A stretch of 64,000 nt of DNA. Source: an uncultured Gemmatimonadota bacterium (GTDB lineage Bacteria > Gemmatimonadota > Gemmatimonadetes > Gemmatimonadales > Gemmatimonadaceae). The translations under genes were made by a program, and so were the position numbers. Under the pieces are notes generated by a model that saw only the letters and a list, made by a program, of their open reading frames with translations, was not told the DNA's origin and ran no database searches. The DNA is taken from positions 62,001 to 126,000 of the forward strand of contig CAIVZZ010000013.1 of NCBI GenBank assembly GCA_903910555.1, given 5' to 3'. Position 1 is the stretch's first letter, and every line of letters starts with the position of its first letter. Of this stretch, positions 9,811 to 53,562 are shown in pieces.

Positions 9811-11067
9811 ATGAATATCCGTCGCGCGGTTTCGCGCACTATGGCGGGAGCGGCGCTGCTCATTGCGCTCCCGGCCTGTTCCGACAAGTTCCTGCAGGTT
9901 GAAAATCCGAACCTGATCGACGCCACCACGGTGGATCCGAATGCGAGCGCGGCCATTCTGGCCAACTCCGCACAGCAGGATTACCAGAACTGGTACGGTT
10001 CGTCGATTATGTACTCGGGCTGGTTCACGGGTGAGATCAACGTTTCGGACACATTCCCGACGCGTAACGAGTTTGGCTACCGTCAGGTTGAAAACCTGAA
10101 CGGTGACCTCACCACGTACCTGTGGGGCCCGGTATCGGTCGCCGCGGCTGAAGGCAAGAGCGTGCTGGATCTTGCGCTGCCGACGCCGACCACGAACATC
10201 ATCGGCGTTCAGGCCGCGATGTTCAGGGCCTACACGATCCTCGACATGGCAACTGACTTCTGTCAGCTCAGCCTTTCGGGGAGCGTGCCGCTCACGCAGA
10301 AGCAGGGGCTCGATTCGGCGATCTACTGGTTCACCAAGGCCATTACGATCGGCAACGCCAACGGCACGGCAGCCGCGCTGACCTACGTCAACGCGTCACT
10401 CGTCGGCCGCGCACGTGCATACCTGCAGGAAGGCAATCTCGCGTTGGCCACGACGGACGCGAATGCAGTCCCGGCAGCGTTCAACTACAACCTGCAGTAT
10501 GTGCAGGACCTGACGGCGAACGAGACGCGTCTGGTGAACAGAATGTGGCAGTTCACTTTCGATCGTGGATCGACGGACGTTCCGATGGCGTACCGCGTGG
10601 GCGACCCGCGCGTGAAGTGGATCTTGGCGCCAGGCCCGGGATATACGGAGCAGGACGTCATCGCCGGACATCCGTATGGCATTCAGCAGAAGTATCCAGC
10701 GTATGCTTCGCCGATCCGTTTGGCTTCGGGGATCGAGGCGGGCTACATCATCGCCGAAGCGTCAGCCAACCCGGTGACGCAGCTGGCGTGGATCAACACG
10801 CAGCGCGTCGCGAACGGTCAGGGTGCCTACACGGGCGCTACCGACGCGGCCAGCGTGATGACGGAACTGTACAATCAGCGTGCCCGTGAATTCTGGCTCG
10901 AAGGACGCAAGATCGGCGACCTGCAGCGCAGCGCAGCCTCGACGACTTTCAACTTCCAGCCGGCTGGATCGGTGTACTACAAGCCGGGTTATCCGAACGT
11001 TGGAACGCAGACTTGCATCATTCTGCCGTATTCGGAGACTTCGACGAATGTGAATTTCCCGCACTAG
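9811..11067 (+). CDS. SusD/RagB-like substrate-binding lipoprotein
   Basis: Surface lipoprotein that caps the SusC barrel and binds substrate. The 418-residue product has a signal peptide with lipobox ALPAC (Cys about residue 23), then the family's typical opening DKFLQVENPNLID. Helical TPR-like segments follow (YRAYTILDMATDFCQLSLSG; ATDAASVMTELYNQRAREFW), then the LEGRKIGDLQR motif near the C-terminus seen in SusD proteins. It follows the receptor gene after 23 bases with a GAGGAG ribosome site. A strong hairpin terminator ends the unit. Confidence 0.92.
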   Translation: MNIRRAVSRTMAGAALLIALPACSDKFLQVENPNLIDATTVDPNASAAILANSAQQDYQNWYGSSIMYSGWFTGEINVSDTFPTRNEFGYRQVENLNGDLTTYLWGPVSVAAAEGKSVLDLALPTPTTNIIGVQAAMFRAYTILDMATDFCQLSLSGSVPLTQKQGLDSAIYWFTKAITIGNANGTAAALTYVNASLVGRARAYLQEGNLALATTDANAVPAAFNYNLQYVQDLTANETRLVNRMWQFTFDRGSTDVPMAYRVGDPRVKWILAPGPGYTEQDVIAGHPYGIQQKYPAYASPIRLASGIEAGYIIAEASANPVTQLAWINTQRVANGQGAYTGATDAASVMTELYNQRAREFWLEGRKIGDLQRSAASTTFNFQPAGSVYYKPGYPNVGTQTCIILPYSETSTNVNFPH

Positions 11068-11084: not shown

Positions 11085-11120
11085 AAAAAGAGTGGGGGCC
11101 ACATGGCCCCCACTCTTTTT
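11085..11120. terminator. Bidirectional intrinsic terminator after the SusCD unit
   Basis: A perfect 16-base stem (AAAAAGAGTGGGGGCC with its complement) closes on the 4-base loop ACAT, with T-runs on both strands. It follows the SusD stop by 17 bases. Confidence 0.93.
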
Positions 11121-11130
11121 TTATTCCGAA

Positions 11131-11386
11131 GAGAGGTGAGTGTGAGTTGAGTAAGAGAGACGAGTTTGAGAGGGAGGGATGAGTTTGAGTACGCTCAGTG
11201 GGAGGTTGAGGGGCGAGACTGAGTTTGAGTCGGAGTTAGAGGGCGTGAGAGATATGCGGAGCGCGATCGCGCGCGACTCCCACTTATCTCACACTCGGCC
11301 TCACTCTCGCCGCTCATACTCCCACTTCGCTTACGCATACTCATCCCTCCCTCTCAAACTCGTCTCTCTTACTCAACTCACCTCTC
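11131..11386. repeat. Giant purine/pyrimidine palindrome (element D)
   Basis: A 256-base imperfect inverted repeat fills the gap between two terminators of convergent genes. The outer arms contain a perfect 38-base match (11147-11184 against 11339-11376). The inner arms match loosely, and the centre is GCGCGATCGCGC near 11261-11272. The left half is almost free of C and made of GAGT/GAGTTTGAG-like words; the right half is its pyrimidine complement. I see no gene in 11068-11473 apart from this element and the two terminators. Confidence 0.9.
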
Positions 11387-11419
11387 GCACTAACTCGCAC
11401 TCCTAGCGTGAACAGCGCG

Positions 11420-11459
11420 AAAAAAGGAGGGGGAGCCATTTGGCTCCCCCTCCTTTTTC
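11420..11459. terminator. Bidirectional intrinsic terminator after the S9 peptidase
   Basis: The stem AAAAAAGGAGGGGGAGCC and its complement close on the loop ATTT, with T-tracts on both sides. It lies just past the stop of the minus-strand peptidase gene, mirroring the terminator of the convergent SusCD unit. Confidence 0.9.
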
Positions 11460-11473
11460 GGCCCCATCATCCG

Positions 11474-13540
11474 TTACGGCAGCGTCTCCTGCGTCGCCGC
11501 CTTCGTCACCGGCTTCGAAGAGTACTTATCAAACCACCCATGCAAATACAACTGCGTCCGCAGGAAGTTCGACGGTGTACTCGATGTCCCGTGATACTCG
11601 TTGTTCATCCGCACCATCATCGTCGGAACGCCACGAAGTTTCAGCGCGCGATAAAACTCTTCCGTCTGCGGCATCGGTGTGCGCAGATCGAGAACGCCGG
11701 TCATCAGCATCGTCGGCGTCTTCACATTGCCGACATACATGATCGGCGAGCGCTTCAGATATTCGCTCGGATCTTCCCAGAACGGCTTCGCGAAGTTGCC
11801 ATACCAGCCGGCTCCGTCCGTCTCACCGACAAAACTCATCCAGTCGATGACCGGACAGAGCGATGCTGCCGCGGCAAAGCGATTCGTGTGGCCCACTGTC
11901 CACGCCGTGAGTACTCCGCCGCCGGAGCAGCCGTAGACGAACATATTCTTCGAGTCGATGTAGCCGCGCCCGATGACCGTGTCCACGCCGGCCATGAGAT
12001 CGTCGAAATCCTTGTCAGGATAGGCGTTCTCGATCTCATTCGTGAACTTCTGCCCGTACCCCGTGCTGCCGCGTGGATTCGTGTATAACACGACATAACC
12101 GTTCGAAGCATGGTTCTGCCGCGCAAAGCTGAATCCGACGTTGTACATCGCCTGGGGGCCGCCGTGGATATCCAGAATCAGCGGATACTTGTGCGTGGGG
12201 TCGAACCCGGCCGGCTTCACGATCCAACCCTGGATCCTCAGCCCGTCCTTGGATTTGTACCAGACTTCTTCGGTGGTCGCGAGCGCCTTTCCGGCGAGCA
12301 CATCGTCATCGACCATGGTCAGCTGATTGAACGCGCTCGTCGTCGCCGCCGCCTTCGGAAGCGCAATCGAGACCACGTCGTTCGGCTTCATCGGCGTGCT
12401 GTTCACGCCGACTGCCGTGCCGTTTGCGGCGATATCCGTCACGGTCAGCACATGCGTGCCGGTCGTCACGGGGCGCACCGCCCCGCTCGCGCTGACGAAG
12501 TACTCGTTCTTCGAGCCTTCGCTCTCCACGCCGAAATAGACGCCCGAGTTGTCGTGCGCCCAAATCAAACCCGACACCGGCCGATCAAGCGCCGGCACAA
12601 CGACGTGCGCATTCGAGCCATCGGCATTCATCGTCCAGACTTTCCCTTCTGCATACGCCGAGTGCTCGATCGAGTCAGCGCCGACAAATGCGATCGTCTT
12701 TCCGTCCGGCGAATAGGTCGCGCCGCTGTTCGTGCCCGCATGATGCGACAGCTGCCTGATCTCGCCGGTCTCGACATTCGCCGCATAGATCTGCGACGTG
12801 CGGAATACATGCTCGGCGTCGTCCACGCGCAGCGACGTAAATGCCAGCCACTTGCCGTCCGGCGAGAACGCGCCGGCGGAGTGGTTCCAGTCGCCGTTCG
12901 TGATCTGCCGCGGCGCTCCGCCGTCGGCGGAAATCACGAAGATGTGCTTGTAGCCGTCGTCGGTGTAGCCGATACGGTCCGAACGAAAATTCAGTCGCGT
13001 CACGATCTTCGGCGGCTCAGTCCACTTCGCGCCCTTCGGCGCGGCGGGCATCGGAATGCGGAAGTTGTCGTTCGACGGCACGGTCATCGTGAAGGCGAGC
13101 GACTTTCCGTCGGGCGCCCACTCGACCGCCGCGGGTGCTTCGGTGAGGTGCGAGATCTGCGTGGCGGCGCCTTCAGCGTCCATCCAGCGCACAAAGATCT
13201 GCGAGCCGCTCGGTTCGCCCTTGGCGATGTACGCGATGCGTTTGCCGTCGGGCGACCACTTCACATCGGAGCCCTGCAGCAGCGACCGCTGATGCGAGCC
13301 GTCGACGTTCATGATGAAGAGCGACGTTTCCCACCGGTCGTTCATCTTGTCGATCCACCGGCGCGTGTAGATCACCTGCGAGCCGTCGGGAGACAGCTGC
13401 GGGTTTGATACTTCGCGCCAGTCGAGGTACTGCTCGAGGGTGAGCTTGTTGGACTGTGCCCGCTGCTGGGCGGGGAGTGTGCTGGCCGCCGAGAGGGCGA
13501 TTGCGCAGCACAGGGCGGATGAAGCGAGACGGTATCGCAC
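11474..13540 (-). CDS. Secreted S9-family (prolyl oligopeptidase-type) peptidase
   Basis: Exported serine peptidase that probably trims peptides in the periplasm or outside the cell. The 688 residues carry a signal peptide (cleavage about TLPAQQ, residue 25), an N-terminal TolB-like beta-propeller (about 40-400; repeats such as SDVKWSPDGKRIAYIA), and a C-terminal alpha/beta-hydrolase domain (about 430-670). Catalytic residues are visible: nucleophile Ser in YGCSGGG, Asp in GVLDLRTP, and His in EYHGTS. The GTG start has a strong AAGGAG site. The Cys before the active Ser is a mild departure from the usual GGSYGG. Confidence 0.9.
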   Translation of the reverse strand: MRYRLASSALCCAIALSAASTLPAQQRAQSNKLTLEQYLDWREVSNPQLSPDGSQVIYTRRWIDKMNDRWETSLFIMNVDGSHQRSLLQGSDVKWSPDGKRIAYIAKGEPSGSQIFVRWMDAEGAATQISHLTEAPAAVEWAPDGKSLAFTMTVPSNDNFRIPMPAAPKGAKWTEPPKIVTRLNFRSDRIGYTDDGYKHIFVISADGGAPRQITNGDWNHSAGAFSPDGKWLAFTSLRVDDAEHVFRTSQIYAANVETGEIRQLSHHAGTNSGATYSPDGKTIAFVGADSIEHSAYAEGKVWTMNADGSNAHVVVPALDRPVSGLIWAHDNSGVYFGVESEGSKNEYFVSASGAVRPVTTGTHVLTVTDIAANGTAVGVNSTPMKPNDVVSIALPKAAATTSAFNQLTMVDDDVLAGKALATTEEVWYKSKDGLRIQGWIVKPAGFDPTHKYPLILDIHGGPQAMYNVGFSFARQNHASNGYVVLYTNPRGSTGYGQKFTNEIENAYPDKDFDDLMAGVDTVIGRGYIDSKNMFVYGCSGGGVLTAWTVGHTNRFAAAASLCPVIDWMSFVGETDGAGWYGNFAKPFWEDPSEYLKRSPIMYVGNVKTPTMLMTGVLDLRTPMPQTEEFYRALKLRGVPTMMVRMNNEYHGTSSTPSNFLRTQLYLHGWFDKYSSKPVTKAATQETLP

Positions 13541-16531: not shown

Positions 16532-16647
16532 GTCTACAGTCTGAGGTCTATTGTCTAGCGTCTGAAAACCCGCAGGACGTAGTTCACAGCTATGAACTGC
16601 AAACAGCGGGTCATCAGACGCTAGACAAAAGACTCTAGACTCAAGAC
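16532..16647. repeat. Palindromic intergenic element A, copy 1
   Basis: A 116-base inverted repeat in the divergent gap between plug-domain gene 2 and the Tat-signal epimerase. The arms pair through most of their length, with a perfect core TTGTCTAGCGTCTGA (16551-16565) against 16614-16628 and a centre near TTCACAGCTATGAA. Over about 75 bases of the core it matches the element at 53435-53562 (reverse complement) with only a handful of differences. Confidence 0.92.
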
Positions 16648-22762: not shown

Positions 22763-22936
22763 ACGCAGAACGCAGGAGAGGAATTGGGACGCGGGGTGGA
22801 GAGGTGAGGGGAGAGTAGCGATGAGATGTGAGAAAGGGCGCGAACTTGAAATGAGCCGCGCCCTTTCTCACATCTCGCATCTACTCCAATCTCACATCTC
22901 CACCCCGCGTCCCAATTCCTCTCCTGCGTTCTGCGT
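22763..22936. repeat. Palindromic intergenic element C, copy 1
   Basis: A 174-base inverted repeat beginning 22 bases after the tricorn stop. The outer arm (about 40 bases, including CGCAGGAGAGGAATTGGGAC and the following GCGGGGTGGAG) is near-perfect. The inner arm GAGATGTGAGAAAGGGCGCG closes on a 14-base loop. A partial further copy of the outer motif lies at about 22941-22965. The remainder of the gap (to 23149) shows only a short hairpin near 23083-23099 and no gene. Confidence 0.92.
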
Positions 22937-26430: not shown

Positions 26431-26889
26431 CTAAAGCTTGCGCCGCATGATCAGCGCGTCCTCCTCAGGCTTGCTGTAATACTTCAATCTGCGCCCGGCG
26501 ATTTCGAATTCTCTCGCCTCGTAAAGCTTCCGCGCCTCTTCGTTCGATTCGCGGACTTCGAGAAAAACTGTCTTTGCGCCGAACTCTGCTGCGGCGCGCA
26601 GAATGCGATCCAACAACAGCGCGCCCACTCCCCTTCTGCGCGCTGCAGGCGCCACGGCGATATTCGCAATCTCTGATTCATCGGCGACGTACCAGGCAAC
26701 CGCATATCCGAGCAGCGTTCCGTCGGCATCGATCGCGACCTCCAGCTTCGCTCGTGGATGATCGAGCAGATCACGGAATCCTTCGAGTGACCACGGATCG
26801 CCGAACGATGCGCTCTCAATCGCGTGGATCGCGGCGAGATCACTCTCAGCCGCCACCCGCACGGTCACTGCAAGCGCCCCCTCACTCAT
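26431..26889 (-). CDS. rimI: Ribosomal protein S18 alanine N-acetyltransferase-like GNAT enzyme
   Basis: GNAT acetyltransferase, probably acting on the N-terminus of S18. The 152 residues show the acetyl-CoA loop APAARRRGVGALLLD (about 92-106), the substrate-side segment IESASFGDPWSLEGF, and the C-terminal FLEVRESNEEARKLYEAREFEIAGRR typical of RimI. It is the last gene of a uvrB-tsaE-tsaB-rimI unit; the tsaB-rimI neighbourhood is common and supports the name. Confidence 0.88.
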   Translation of the reverse strand: MSEGALAVTVRVAAESDLAAIHAIESASFGDPWSLEGFRDLLDHPRAKLEVAIDADGTLLGYAVAWYVADESEIANIAVAPAARRRGVGALLLDRILRAAAEFGAKTVFLEVRESNEEARKLYEAREFEIAGRRLKYYSKPEEDALIMRRKL

Positions 26890-26906
26890 CGCCTATCGCG
26901 CTCCCC

Positions 26907-27587
26907 TCATGCTTCGCCCGTCGCCCTAAGGGCCCGACCGTGCGTCGCCTCCCACTTCACCTGCGCTTCTGCCAGACGGCCGTAGTCGGGCTCCCACGTG
27001 TCGAGCGAAACGCGGCCGTGCTCAATGACCTGATCGAGCAGCATCGCCACGCCACGCGCATGCGGCGCGGCCTCGAGCATTTCCTTCGGGCCAATGGCGC
27101 GCGCCTCGAGGCGTTCGCACGTGCTCGCAACATCGGCATCACGAACCAAACCGAGCCGCTCGAGCTCGCGAACGCTGCCACCCGCGCCCACCTGATACAA
27201 CGCCGCGTACTTCTCGCCGCGCATTGCGTCCAAGAGCGCGAGCCAGCGGCCGGGCTCAAGCTGCTCGCTGCGCCCCGCGACAATCAGCGCGAGCGACGAA
27301 ACAGCGAACAGTCCGTCGACGCGAGCGCCATTTCCCATCACAATCCCTTTCGCGATCGCGCCGGCAATGCGCAGCGAGGTAAAACTCCCCGGCCCCGCGC
27401 CGCAGATCACGCGCGTGACATCGCGCACGGAGCACCCCGCTTCGCCGAGCGTCGCGACGACTGCCGGCATCAACCGCTCTTCCTGCTCACCGCGCATCAC
27501 GGCCTCGCCCTCGGCCACAACCACGCGATCGCGCAGCACCGCCACGGTGCCGATGTACGTCGACGCATCAATCGCCAGCGTGATCAC
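26907..27587 (-). CDS. tsaB: tRNA threonylcarbamoyladenosine synthesis protein TsaB
   Basis: Scaffold of the complex that makes t6A37 in ANN-decoding tRNAs. The 226-residue protein has the ASKHA-fold start LAIDASTYIGTVAVL, the GEAVMRGEQEERLMPAV segment and the signature GAGPGSFTSLRIAGAIAKG (about 82-100). It lies four bases after tsaE and just before rimI. Its partners TsaC and TsaD are not in this window. Confidence 0.93.
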   Translation of the reverse strand: MITLAIDASTYIGTVAVLRDRVVVAEGEAVMRGEQEERLMPAVVATLGEAGCSVRDVTRVICGAGPGSFTSLRIAGAIAKGIVMGNGARVDGLFAVSSLALIVAGRSEQLEPGRWLALLDAMRGEKYAALYQVGAGGSVRELERLGLVRDADVASTCERLEARAIGPKEMLEAAPHARGVAMLLDQVIEHGRVSLDTWEPDYGRLAEAQVKWEATHGRALRATGEA

Positions 27588-30087: not shown

Positions 30088-30120
30088 CGGGTAGGGCGTC
30101 CCCGGCAACCCAAGAGAAGT

Positions 30121-30238
30121 GAACTGTTTTCTGTTGGTCGGCTAACCAAGGTTTTCCGTCCGGACTACGGACGTTGTCGCGCGGTACGTAGTCCGGACGG
30201 ATTCTCTGACAGAACACCGACCAACAGAAGACAGTCAA
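30121..30238. repeat. Palindromic intergenic element B, copy 1
   Basis: Nested inverted repeat of about 118 bases, 12 bases beyond the stop of the minus-strand membrane protein gene. The outer arms are CTGTTTTCTGTTGGTCGG and its near-complement; the inner arms are CCGTCCGGACTACG and its exact complement. One arm shares roughly 42 aligned bases with the element at 37708-37785. Confidence 0.9.
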
Positions 30239-30249
30239 CGTCTGTCGCG

Positions 30250-32924: not shown

Positions 32925-33039
32925 GACACGGGAGGCGGGAGAGGAATCGGAACGCGGGTGTTCGCGAAGAGACACTCACTTCTTCTCTCATCTCGCCTCT
33001 CCACCCCGCGTCCAAATTCCTCTCCTGCGTTCTGCGTCA
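32925..33039. repeat. Palindromic intergenic element C, copy 2
   Basis: Imperfect inverted repeat starting about 24 bases past the radC stop (minus strand). The right arm, about 40 bases (CACCCCGCGTCC through TCTGCGTCAG), is almost identical to the right arm of the copy at 22763-22936. The left arm is more diverged (GGGAGAGGAATCGGAACGCG), and the inner stem of copy 1 is absent. Its left end abuts the relA/spoT promoter. Confidence 0.85.
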
Positions 33040-37707: not shown

Positions 37708-37785
37708 AACTACGGTTCTCTGTTGGTCGGTTAAGCACGGTGGTTGACGTAAAACCTTCGTTAACCGACCAACAGAAAACAGTTA
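37708..37785. repeat. Palindromic intergenic element B, copy 2
   Basis: A 78-base inverted repeat between nadD and bamD. Core arms CTGTTGGTCGGTTAA and its exact complement lie at 37720-37734 and 37761-37775. The bamD stop codon (TTAA, 37783-37785) forms the end of the right arm. One strand matches element B copy 1 over about 42 bases (AACTGTTTTCTGTTGGTCGG, then TAAC-AAGGTTTT-CGTC with few changes). Confidence 0.9.
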
Positions 37786-46482: not shown

Positions 46483-46588
46483 GAAAACAATTTTTGCCAC
46501 AGGTCGACGCTGAAACGCGCGGGTCTTTCCCGTTCTCGGAAAGACCCGCGCGTTTCTGTGTAAACCTGCGGCAATTTTTTCTTCTTAC
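46479..46588. repeat. Long palindrome joining two convergent stop codons (element E)
   Basis: 110 bases. The inner stem is 19 bp, perfect (46512-46530 against 46538-46556; GAAACGCGCGGGTCTTTCC), with a 7-base loop. The outer arms GTAAGAA...GCC-CAGGT pair across 46479-46504 and 46564-46588, and contain the stop codons of both the lipid kinase and the oxidoreductase genes. Probable bidirectional terminator. Confidence 0.9.

Positions 46589-52394: not shown

Positions 52395-53562
<1,168 letters not shown>

Follow-up and report, generated by a model that had tools for sequence, protein, structure and literature searches.

A gene-less palindrome in a Gemmatimonadaceae genome as a member of a palindrome family linked to S23 (four-helix-bundle) genes

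What kind of element is a palindrome of ~250 bp that lies between two protein genes, and does it belong to any of the known families of dispersed repeats? The question is raised by positions 11131-11386 of the window, the 64,000-nucleotide stretch of an uncultured Gemmatimonadaceae bacterium that was analyzed here. An earlier note on this DNA had described a GA-rich/CT-rich palindrome at this site, and its existence was confirmed, with a GA-rich left half containing 9 C in 128 nt and a CT-rich right half containing 15 G in 128 nt. The locus is composed of the following features:

9811..11067, + strand: left neighbor, an ORF of 418 aa directly after a TonB-dependent receptor gene
11085..11120, + strand: perfect hairpin with a T-run, intrinsic-terminator-like, after the left neighbor gene (context, outside the element)
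11129..11250, + strand: GA-rich left arm with GAGT words, an inverted repeat that matches the arms of locus L037
11251..11275, no strand: central region with the short perfect dyad CGCGATCGCG at 11262-11271 and no S23 ORF
11276..11400, - strand: CT-rich right arm, the reverse complement of the left arm (inverted repeat, fold)
11421..11458, - strand: perfect hairpin, intrinsic-terminator-like, after the S9 peptidase gene (context, outside the element)
11474..13540, - strand: right neighbor, S9 prolyl oligopeptidase-family protein, convergent

The longest perfect arm of the palindrome is 43 bp (11142-11184 pairing with 11339-11381), somewhat more than the 38 bases previously given for it, and the ungapped arms extend over 97 nt with 85% complementarity (11142-11238 and 11285-11381), with eight derived bases common to both arms of this copy. 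The predicted fold of the + strand reaches -177.4 kcal/mol compared with -94.8 ± 5.4 for shuffled sequences (z -15.4), the - strand yields z -16.1, and 0 of 200 shuffles on each strand fold as well as the palindrome, in agreement with the hairpin or cruciform potential suggested earlier. The proposed mirror pairing did not stand, as the arms are reverse complements of each other (inverted score 119 vs. mirror score 14), and mirror scores within the individual arms are 27 and 24. Because the symmetry is inverted and not mirror, the idea of a triplex loses its basis, and an H-DNA motif, which takes a mirror-symmetric polypurine tract, was rejected for this site. A search of Rfam at E up to 1 returned 35 matches to the palindrome with 0 at the gathering score, and these sub-threshold matches (microRNA-like and others) were discarded as chance matches to a long hairpin.

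The two flanking hairpins have perfect stems of 17 and 18 nt with T-runs, and the observation that the palindrome lies between two strong terminators, where a role in termination would be redundant, was upheld. The 418-aa ORF has no Pfam match and is read as SusD-like by its position alone. The S9 peptidase family is present in 18 of the 18 genus genomes searched, and with the S9 protein as query no empty counterpart of the window site was found in these 18 genomes because the left neighbor gene is missing from all the relatives' loci that were read.

The earlier note had also proposed a search of the rest of the genome for purine-rich palindromes of this type; the outcome was positive and led to an S23 gene inside one copy. 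In the same genome (G000; 3.2 Mb, 32 contigs), the family with GAGT words gives 24 matches at 12 places on nine contigs, with both strands matched at all 12 places; seven of the places are whole palindromes, two (on contig C25) are the arms of one insert-bearing copy, and three are half copies (C26:154, C26:8213, and C6:373). The gene settings of the copies, judged by eye, are co-directional, convergent, and divergent. The arms of the C25 copy (L037) align over 156 nt at 92% and lie ~520 nt apart, and the ORF between them matches PF05635 (23S rRNA-intervening sequence protein, E 4e-13) and TIGR02436 (four helix bundle protein, E 3e-16), with a weak match of the encoded S23 protein to PDB 2gsc (E 2.5e-5). 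The window palindrome scores 142 against the L037 arms, compared with 22 for the next own-genome arm, a shuffle maximum of 27, and a next best of 46 among the other S23 arms compared in the genus. An S23 ORF is present in one GAGT family member of G000 and absent between the arms of the window copy, which is called gene-less because its arms are homologous to those of L037 and it lacks this ORF. It is well supported that the window palindrome belongs, as a copy without the gene, to a palindrome family linked to S23.

Among 41 genomes searched, GAGT palindromes occur in G000, G010, and G012 only, all of one genus. Across eight GAGT copies, the mean similarity of an arm to its own mate is ~0.82 compared with ~0.80 to the arms of other copies, the nearest neighbor of an arm is never its own mate, and the comparison does not support concerted evolution between the arms of a copy. 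At the start of C26 (L016, 1-150), an IS3-like transposase end adjoins, by eye, the right half of a GAGT palindrome, a candidate event in which an IS likely inserted into the palindrome. At the start of C6 (L018, 1-500), near the contig end, the right arm is expanded into a long tandem array of CTCCCACTCAA/CTCCCACTCAG units.

The association of S23 genes with inverted arms extends to the whole genome and genus. There are 11 PF05635 genes in G000 and 0 in 14 control genomes, and each of the 11 lies between long inverted repeats with words of its own, with arm scores (left flank vs. reverse-complemented right flank) of 58-191, compared with scores of at most 30 in 110 mismatched pairs and at most 35 in 318 intervals of the window that contain no known palindrome. 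In a first arm test of 38 loci the control contained orthologous loci, with 31 of the 38 above its 95th percentile and 0 above its maximum, and the own-genome mismatched-pair test was used in its place. PF05635 occurs in 14 of the 18 genus genomes searched, and the arm score exceeds 32 at 47 of the 57 S23 loci read, with a median arm of 77 nt (up to 190 nt) and a median spacer of 507 nt. Of the 10 loci that are armless by this test, six (L042, L043, L045, L047, L049, and L050) represent one old orthologous site with weak arms.

The similarity of the arms tracks the similarity of the S23 proteins (Mantel r 0.51), also after the removal of pairs with homologous flanks (r 0.34), with 0 of 5000 permutations reaching the observed value in either case. 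For example, the S23 clade of L037 includes L067 (G010), L074 (G012), and L082 (G002), and the three genomes with GAGT palindromes hold the GAGT-clade genes L037, L067, and L074. There are counter-cases: in G002, an S23 gene of the GAGT clade is enclosed by GAGT-type arms, yet the search of relatives gave 0 GAGT palindrome matches for this genome; the same genome has five L033-type palindrome matches, and none of the S23 genes found there has arms of that type; and the GAGT copies of G010 and G012 are often closest to the S23 arms of another species.

Gene-less copies are a feature of other arm families as well. Five of the 11 arm families (L037, L033, L038, L039, and L030) were searched across G000, and all five also occur without a gene, at 10 to 30 places each, with the arms around the gene itself counted among these places. 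L033 arms give 57 matches at 30 places (27 of them matched on both strands), L038 arms 30 matches at 19 places, L039 arms 35 matches at 26 places, and L030 arms 16 matches at 10 places. Seven more palindromes or halves, from four S23 arm families, lie elsewhere in the window:

16532..16647, no strand: L033-family palindrome with AGTCTNN heptads, the second palindrome in the window
53440..53555, no strand: L033-family palindrome with AGTCTNN heptads, the third palindrome in the window
22763-22936: palindrome resembling L038 arms (score 39, shuffle maximum 24)
32925-33038: palindrome resembling L038 arms (score 37, shuffle maximum 27)
30115-30243: palindrome with TTGGTCGG words like L032 arms (score 50, shuffle maximum 24)
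37712-37783: palindrome with TTGGTCGG words like L032 arms (score 50, shuffle maximum 21)
26880-26928: single-arm match to the L039 family

A terminator-like palindrome of 37 nt between A- and T-runs at 46494-46574 matched no S23 arm family. Elsewhere in G000, locus L090 (C13:15179-16910) carries three L038-family palindromes or arms in 1.7 kb, ~600 nt apart, and no PF05635 gene was found between them. According to simple ORF calls, the gene-less palindromes at L110, L117, L118, L122, L149, L152, L154, and L155 start 4-13 nt past a stop codon. No target-site duplication was found in 12 L033-family copies (mean 1.5 nt vs. 1.1 nt in the null).

A gene-less L033-family copy at C19:54841 was traced through the genus, with matches in 17 of 18 genomes, and the comparison counts only those loci with both genes of the flanking pair on the stretch. 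Between the same pair of genes, G000, G012, and G010 each carry a palindrome composed of different words, and each is closest to S23 arms of its own genome: the G000 palindrome to L033 (136, next 25), that of G012 to L073 (57, next 31), and that of G010 to L055 (52, next 45 for L073, which belongs to the same S23 clade). The site holds a plain terminator-type hairpin only in G016, G006, G008, G014, and G015, and a short hairpin with GCAGAAG words in G007 and G013. At the S23 locus L037, the flanks are ~75-85% identical between species and arm pairing is kept (scores 83-191), and the arms of L037 are barely alignable with those of L069, L077, and L083 (similarity 0.16-0.20, compared with a mean of 0.13 and a 95th percentile of 0.20 for unrelated pairs), with GAG-rich words in common. 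In G010, G012, and G002 (L069, L077, and L083), the S23 gene is reversed relative to the flanks of the L037 locus, as would result from a flip of the loop enclosed by the arms.

Beyond the genus, a contig scan with the S23 alignment A1 was evaluated for the best 80 of 574 confirmed loci, whose titles name the phyla Chloroflexota, Acidobacteriota, Bacteroidota, Planctomycetota, Verrucomicrobiota, Nitrospirota, Cyanobacteria, Pseudomonadota, and others. In these best 80 loci, base agreement at a lag of 7 in the 100 nt on each side of S23 is 0.41/0.40 compared with 0.26 in a control of 150 stretches 800-900 nt away, with harmonics at lags of 14 and 21, and the lag-7 signal exceeds z 2.5 in 43 of 79 upstream and 46 of 80 downstream flanks compared with 3 of 150 controls. 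One of the 80 loci was dropped from the inverted-repeat test because of a short flank; among the remaining 79 of this best-scoring set, 65 have heptads on either side or an inverted-repeat score above 39, 30 have heptads on both sides, and 14 have neither heptads nor arms by these tests. Inverted arms alone are above the 99th percentile of 790 mismatched pairs at 26 of these 79 loci, a modest signal, in part because unrelated phyla share words. Lag-7 agreement is 0.43 in the S23 arms of the genus as a whole and 0.30 in the GAGT arms, which have peaks at 6, 11, and 13 and no peak at 7; a period of seven as a universal rule thus fails in the window's own family.

S23 proteins have drawn notice chiefly because their ORFs, of unexplained role, occur in split rRNAs and because they are related to Avd, and to our knowledge no catalytic activity has been described for them. 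One close likeness is to the intervening sequences (IVS) of 23S rRNA in Coxiella and Leptospira, in which an S23 ORF lies inside complementary termini that form a long stem-loop, with tandem heptamers (GACAGAT) just upstream of S23 in Coxiella, and which are excised by RNase III and have a sporadic spread suggestive of horizontal transfer (PMC4990558, in part). An S23 ORF within complementary arms and heptads beside S23 genes are found here too, and the window copy has complementary termini that form a long stem. In contrast to the IVS, the window palindrome lies between two protein genes and outside any 23S rRNA helix, a single genome holds several families, most copies are without a gene, arms reach 190 nt, and heptamers of the Coxiella type next to S23 are absent from the GAGT family. 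REPINs are likewise dispersed extragenic palindromes with predicted hairpins, in several groups per genome that each have a specific partner gene (PMC3116915, in part), an arrangement resembling the scattered, gene-linked palindrome groups described here. However, RAYT is a tyrosine transposase whereas the partner here is the four-helix-bundle S23, and the arms of the window family are ~97-120 nt compared with REP units of 20-40 bp (PMC3733652, in part). The window palindrome shares terminal inverted repeats with MITEs, and target-site duplication, another MITE feature, was looked for in 12 copies of the L033 family and not found there. The element is accordingly filed neither as a REPIN (unit too long), nor as a MITE (no target-site duplication in the L033 family), nor as an IVS (not in rRNA).

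Words of 7 nt in intergenic or stem-loop positions are also known from the heptamer TAACTGA, described without a mechanism from Beggiatoaceae, cyanobacteria, and Bacteroidetes in a scattered phylogeny (PMC4679880, in part), and from the P6b stem of the Nostoc trnL intron, always made of 7-nt motifs (TDNGATT/NNTGAGT; PMC4476775, in part). The main text of the TAACTGA study differs in that it contains "S23" and "four helix" 0 times (PMC4679880). The accessory protein Avd of diversity-generating retroelements is related to PF05635 (PMC10053308, in part), and the S23 proteins of L029 and L033 match Avd (NCBIfam) weakly (E 0.003 and 0.009); unlike such retroelements, G000 has 0 matches to the reverse transcriptase PF00078, a profile that is positive in 3 of 14 control genomes. 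In the open-licence literature, searched by title and start of abstract (weak evidence of absence), no link of S23 or four-helix-bundle genes to dispersed palindromes was found.

On balance, the window palindrome is probably one copy, without the gene, of a dispersed hairpin element whose full form encloses an S23-family gene, with S23 helping to spread the copies. The full element would consist of long inverted arms of short degenerate words around an S23/four-helix-bundle gene (PF05635/TIGR02436) and the gene-less copies of the arms alone around a short center, scattered between genes in species-specific families within each genome. The arms would fold into a hairpin, formed either by read-through RNA or by DNA in a single-stranded or cruciform state, and the S23 oligomer of the family would recognize the arm words and help to copy or re-insert the hairpin elsewhere, possibly assisted by host repair or replication enzymes, in parallel to the role of RAYT for REPINs with an unrelated protein. 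The family membership of the window copy, the position of S23 genes between arms, the several dispersed and species-specific families, and the arms around S23 across phyla are observed; movement of the copies, an action of S23 on the arms, a dependence of the gene-less copies on S23 supplied in trans, and an enzyme for cutting and joining are what we infer. By analogy, the mode of working would be that of REPINs and MITEs. The analysis revealed no transposition event and, in the search of G000 for PF00078, no enzyme that would cut and join the hairpins.

Other explanations account for parts of these data. A conventional transposase (RAYT/HUH or IS) could have spread the palindromes as a REP/REPIN or MITE family, with S23 as cargo that settled in palindromes; gene-less dispersed palindromes are typical of REPINs (PMC3116915, in part), the absence of target-site duplication would fit HUH-type transposition, and an IS3-like end adjoins one half copy at C26 (by eye), but S23 is the sole partner gene seen between arms, at 11 of 11 S23 genes of G000 and in many phyla, and this origin is considered unlikely. 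An improbable account, too, is one in which replication slippage and quasipalindrome template switching build the arms in place by copying repeat words between the two arms, with no real transposition and with S23 genes or terminators in the loops by chance. It draws on single arms that have expanded in tandem (C6, and the L117 site in G010), on pairing that persists at the orthologous locus L037/L069/L083 despite changed words, and on the lack of target-site duplication in L033-family copies. However, the same long arm sequence recurs at 10 to 30 places per family, which therefore needs dispersal, and GAGT arms are no closer to their own mate than to those of other copies.

A hairpin useful to the host and under selection (a terminator, a stabilizer of mRNA 3′ ends, a roadblock between convergent genes, or an RNase III site) would explain why several L033- and L030-family copies start shortly past a stop codon (simple ORF calls) and why the L033 core AAAACCCGC...GCGGGTTTT is terminator-like, with a plain terminator-like hairpin at the same site in other species. 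Such a function is nevertheless highly unlikely for the window copy, which has no T-run of its own and lies between two perfect terminators; copies of the family occur in all three gene orientations (by eye), and few species of the genus carry the GAGT family, unlike a needed terminator. The strong purine/pyrimidine bias would suit triplex DNA or an artefact of assembly, an explanation with next to no probability given the scores of 14 (mirror) and 119 (inverted); the chimeric assembly that the earlier note had named as grounds for refutation is unlikely to be the sole cause because the palindrome recurs at 12 places in the genome and has homologs in relatives.

The S23-assisted hairpin element can also be extended, more tentatively, to a general form: S23 may possibly be the partner of widespread mobile hairpin elements without a recognized transposase or reverse transcriptase, whose arms would be recognized by an S23 ring and whose gene-bearing and gene-less forms would spread through intergenic hairpin sites, with rRNA IVS, cyanobacterial heptad stem-loops, and intergenic heptamers as members or relics. 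The rRNA intervening sequences may thus be a special case of the S23-linked hairpin element. The link would join three puzzles, namely why S23 genes exist, how rRNA intervening sequences originated, and why some genomes are littered with heptamers, and it predicts a testable partnership of protein and repeat and possibly mobile DNA of a class that lacks any recombinase known so far. S23 genes carry no annotation beyond "four helix bundle protein," and the link suggests that they are usable as markers for the palindrome families of a genome; the tendency of S23 genes in very different bacteria to lie inside such arms hints at a little-understood kind of selfish DNA.
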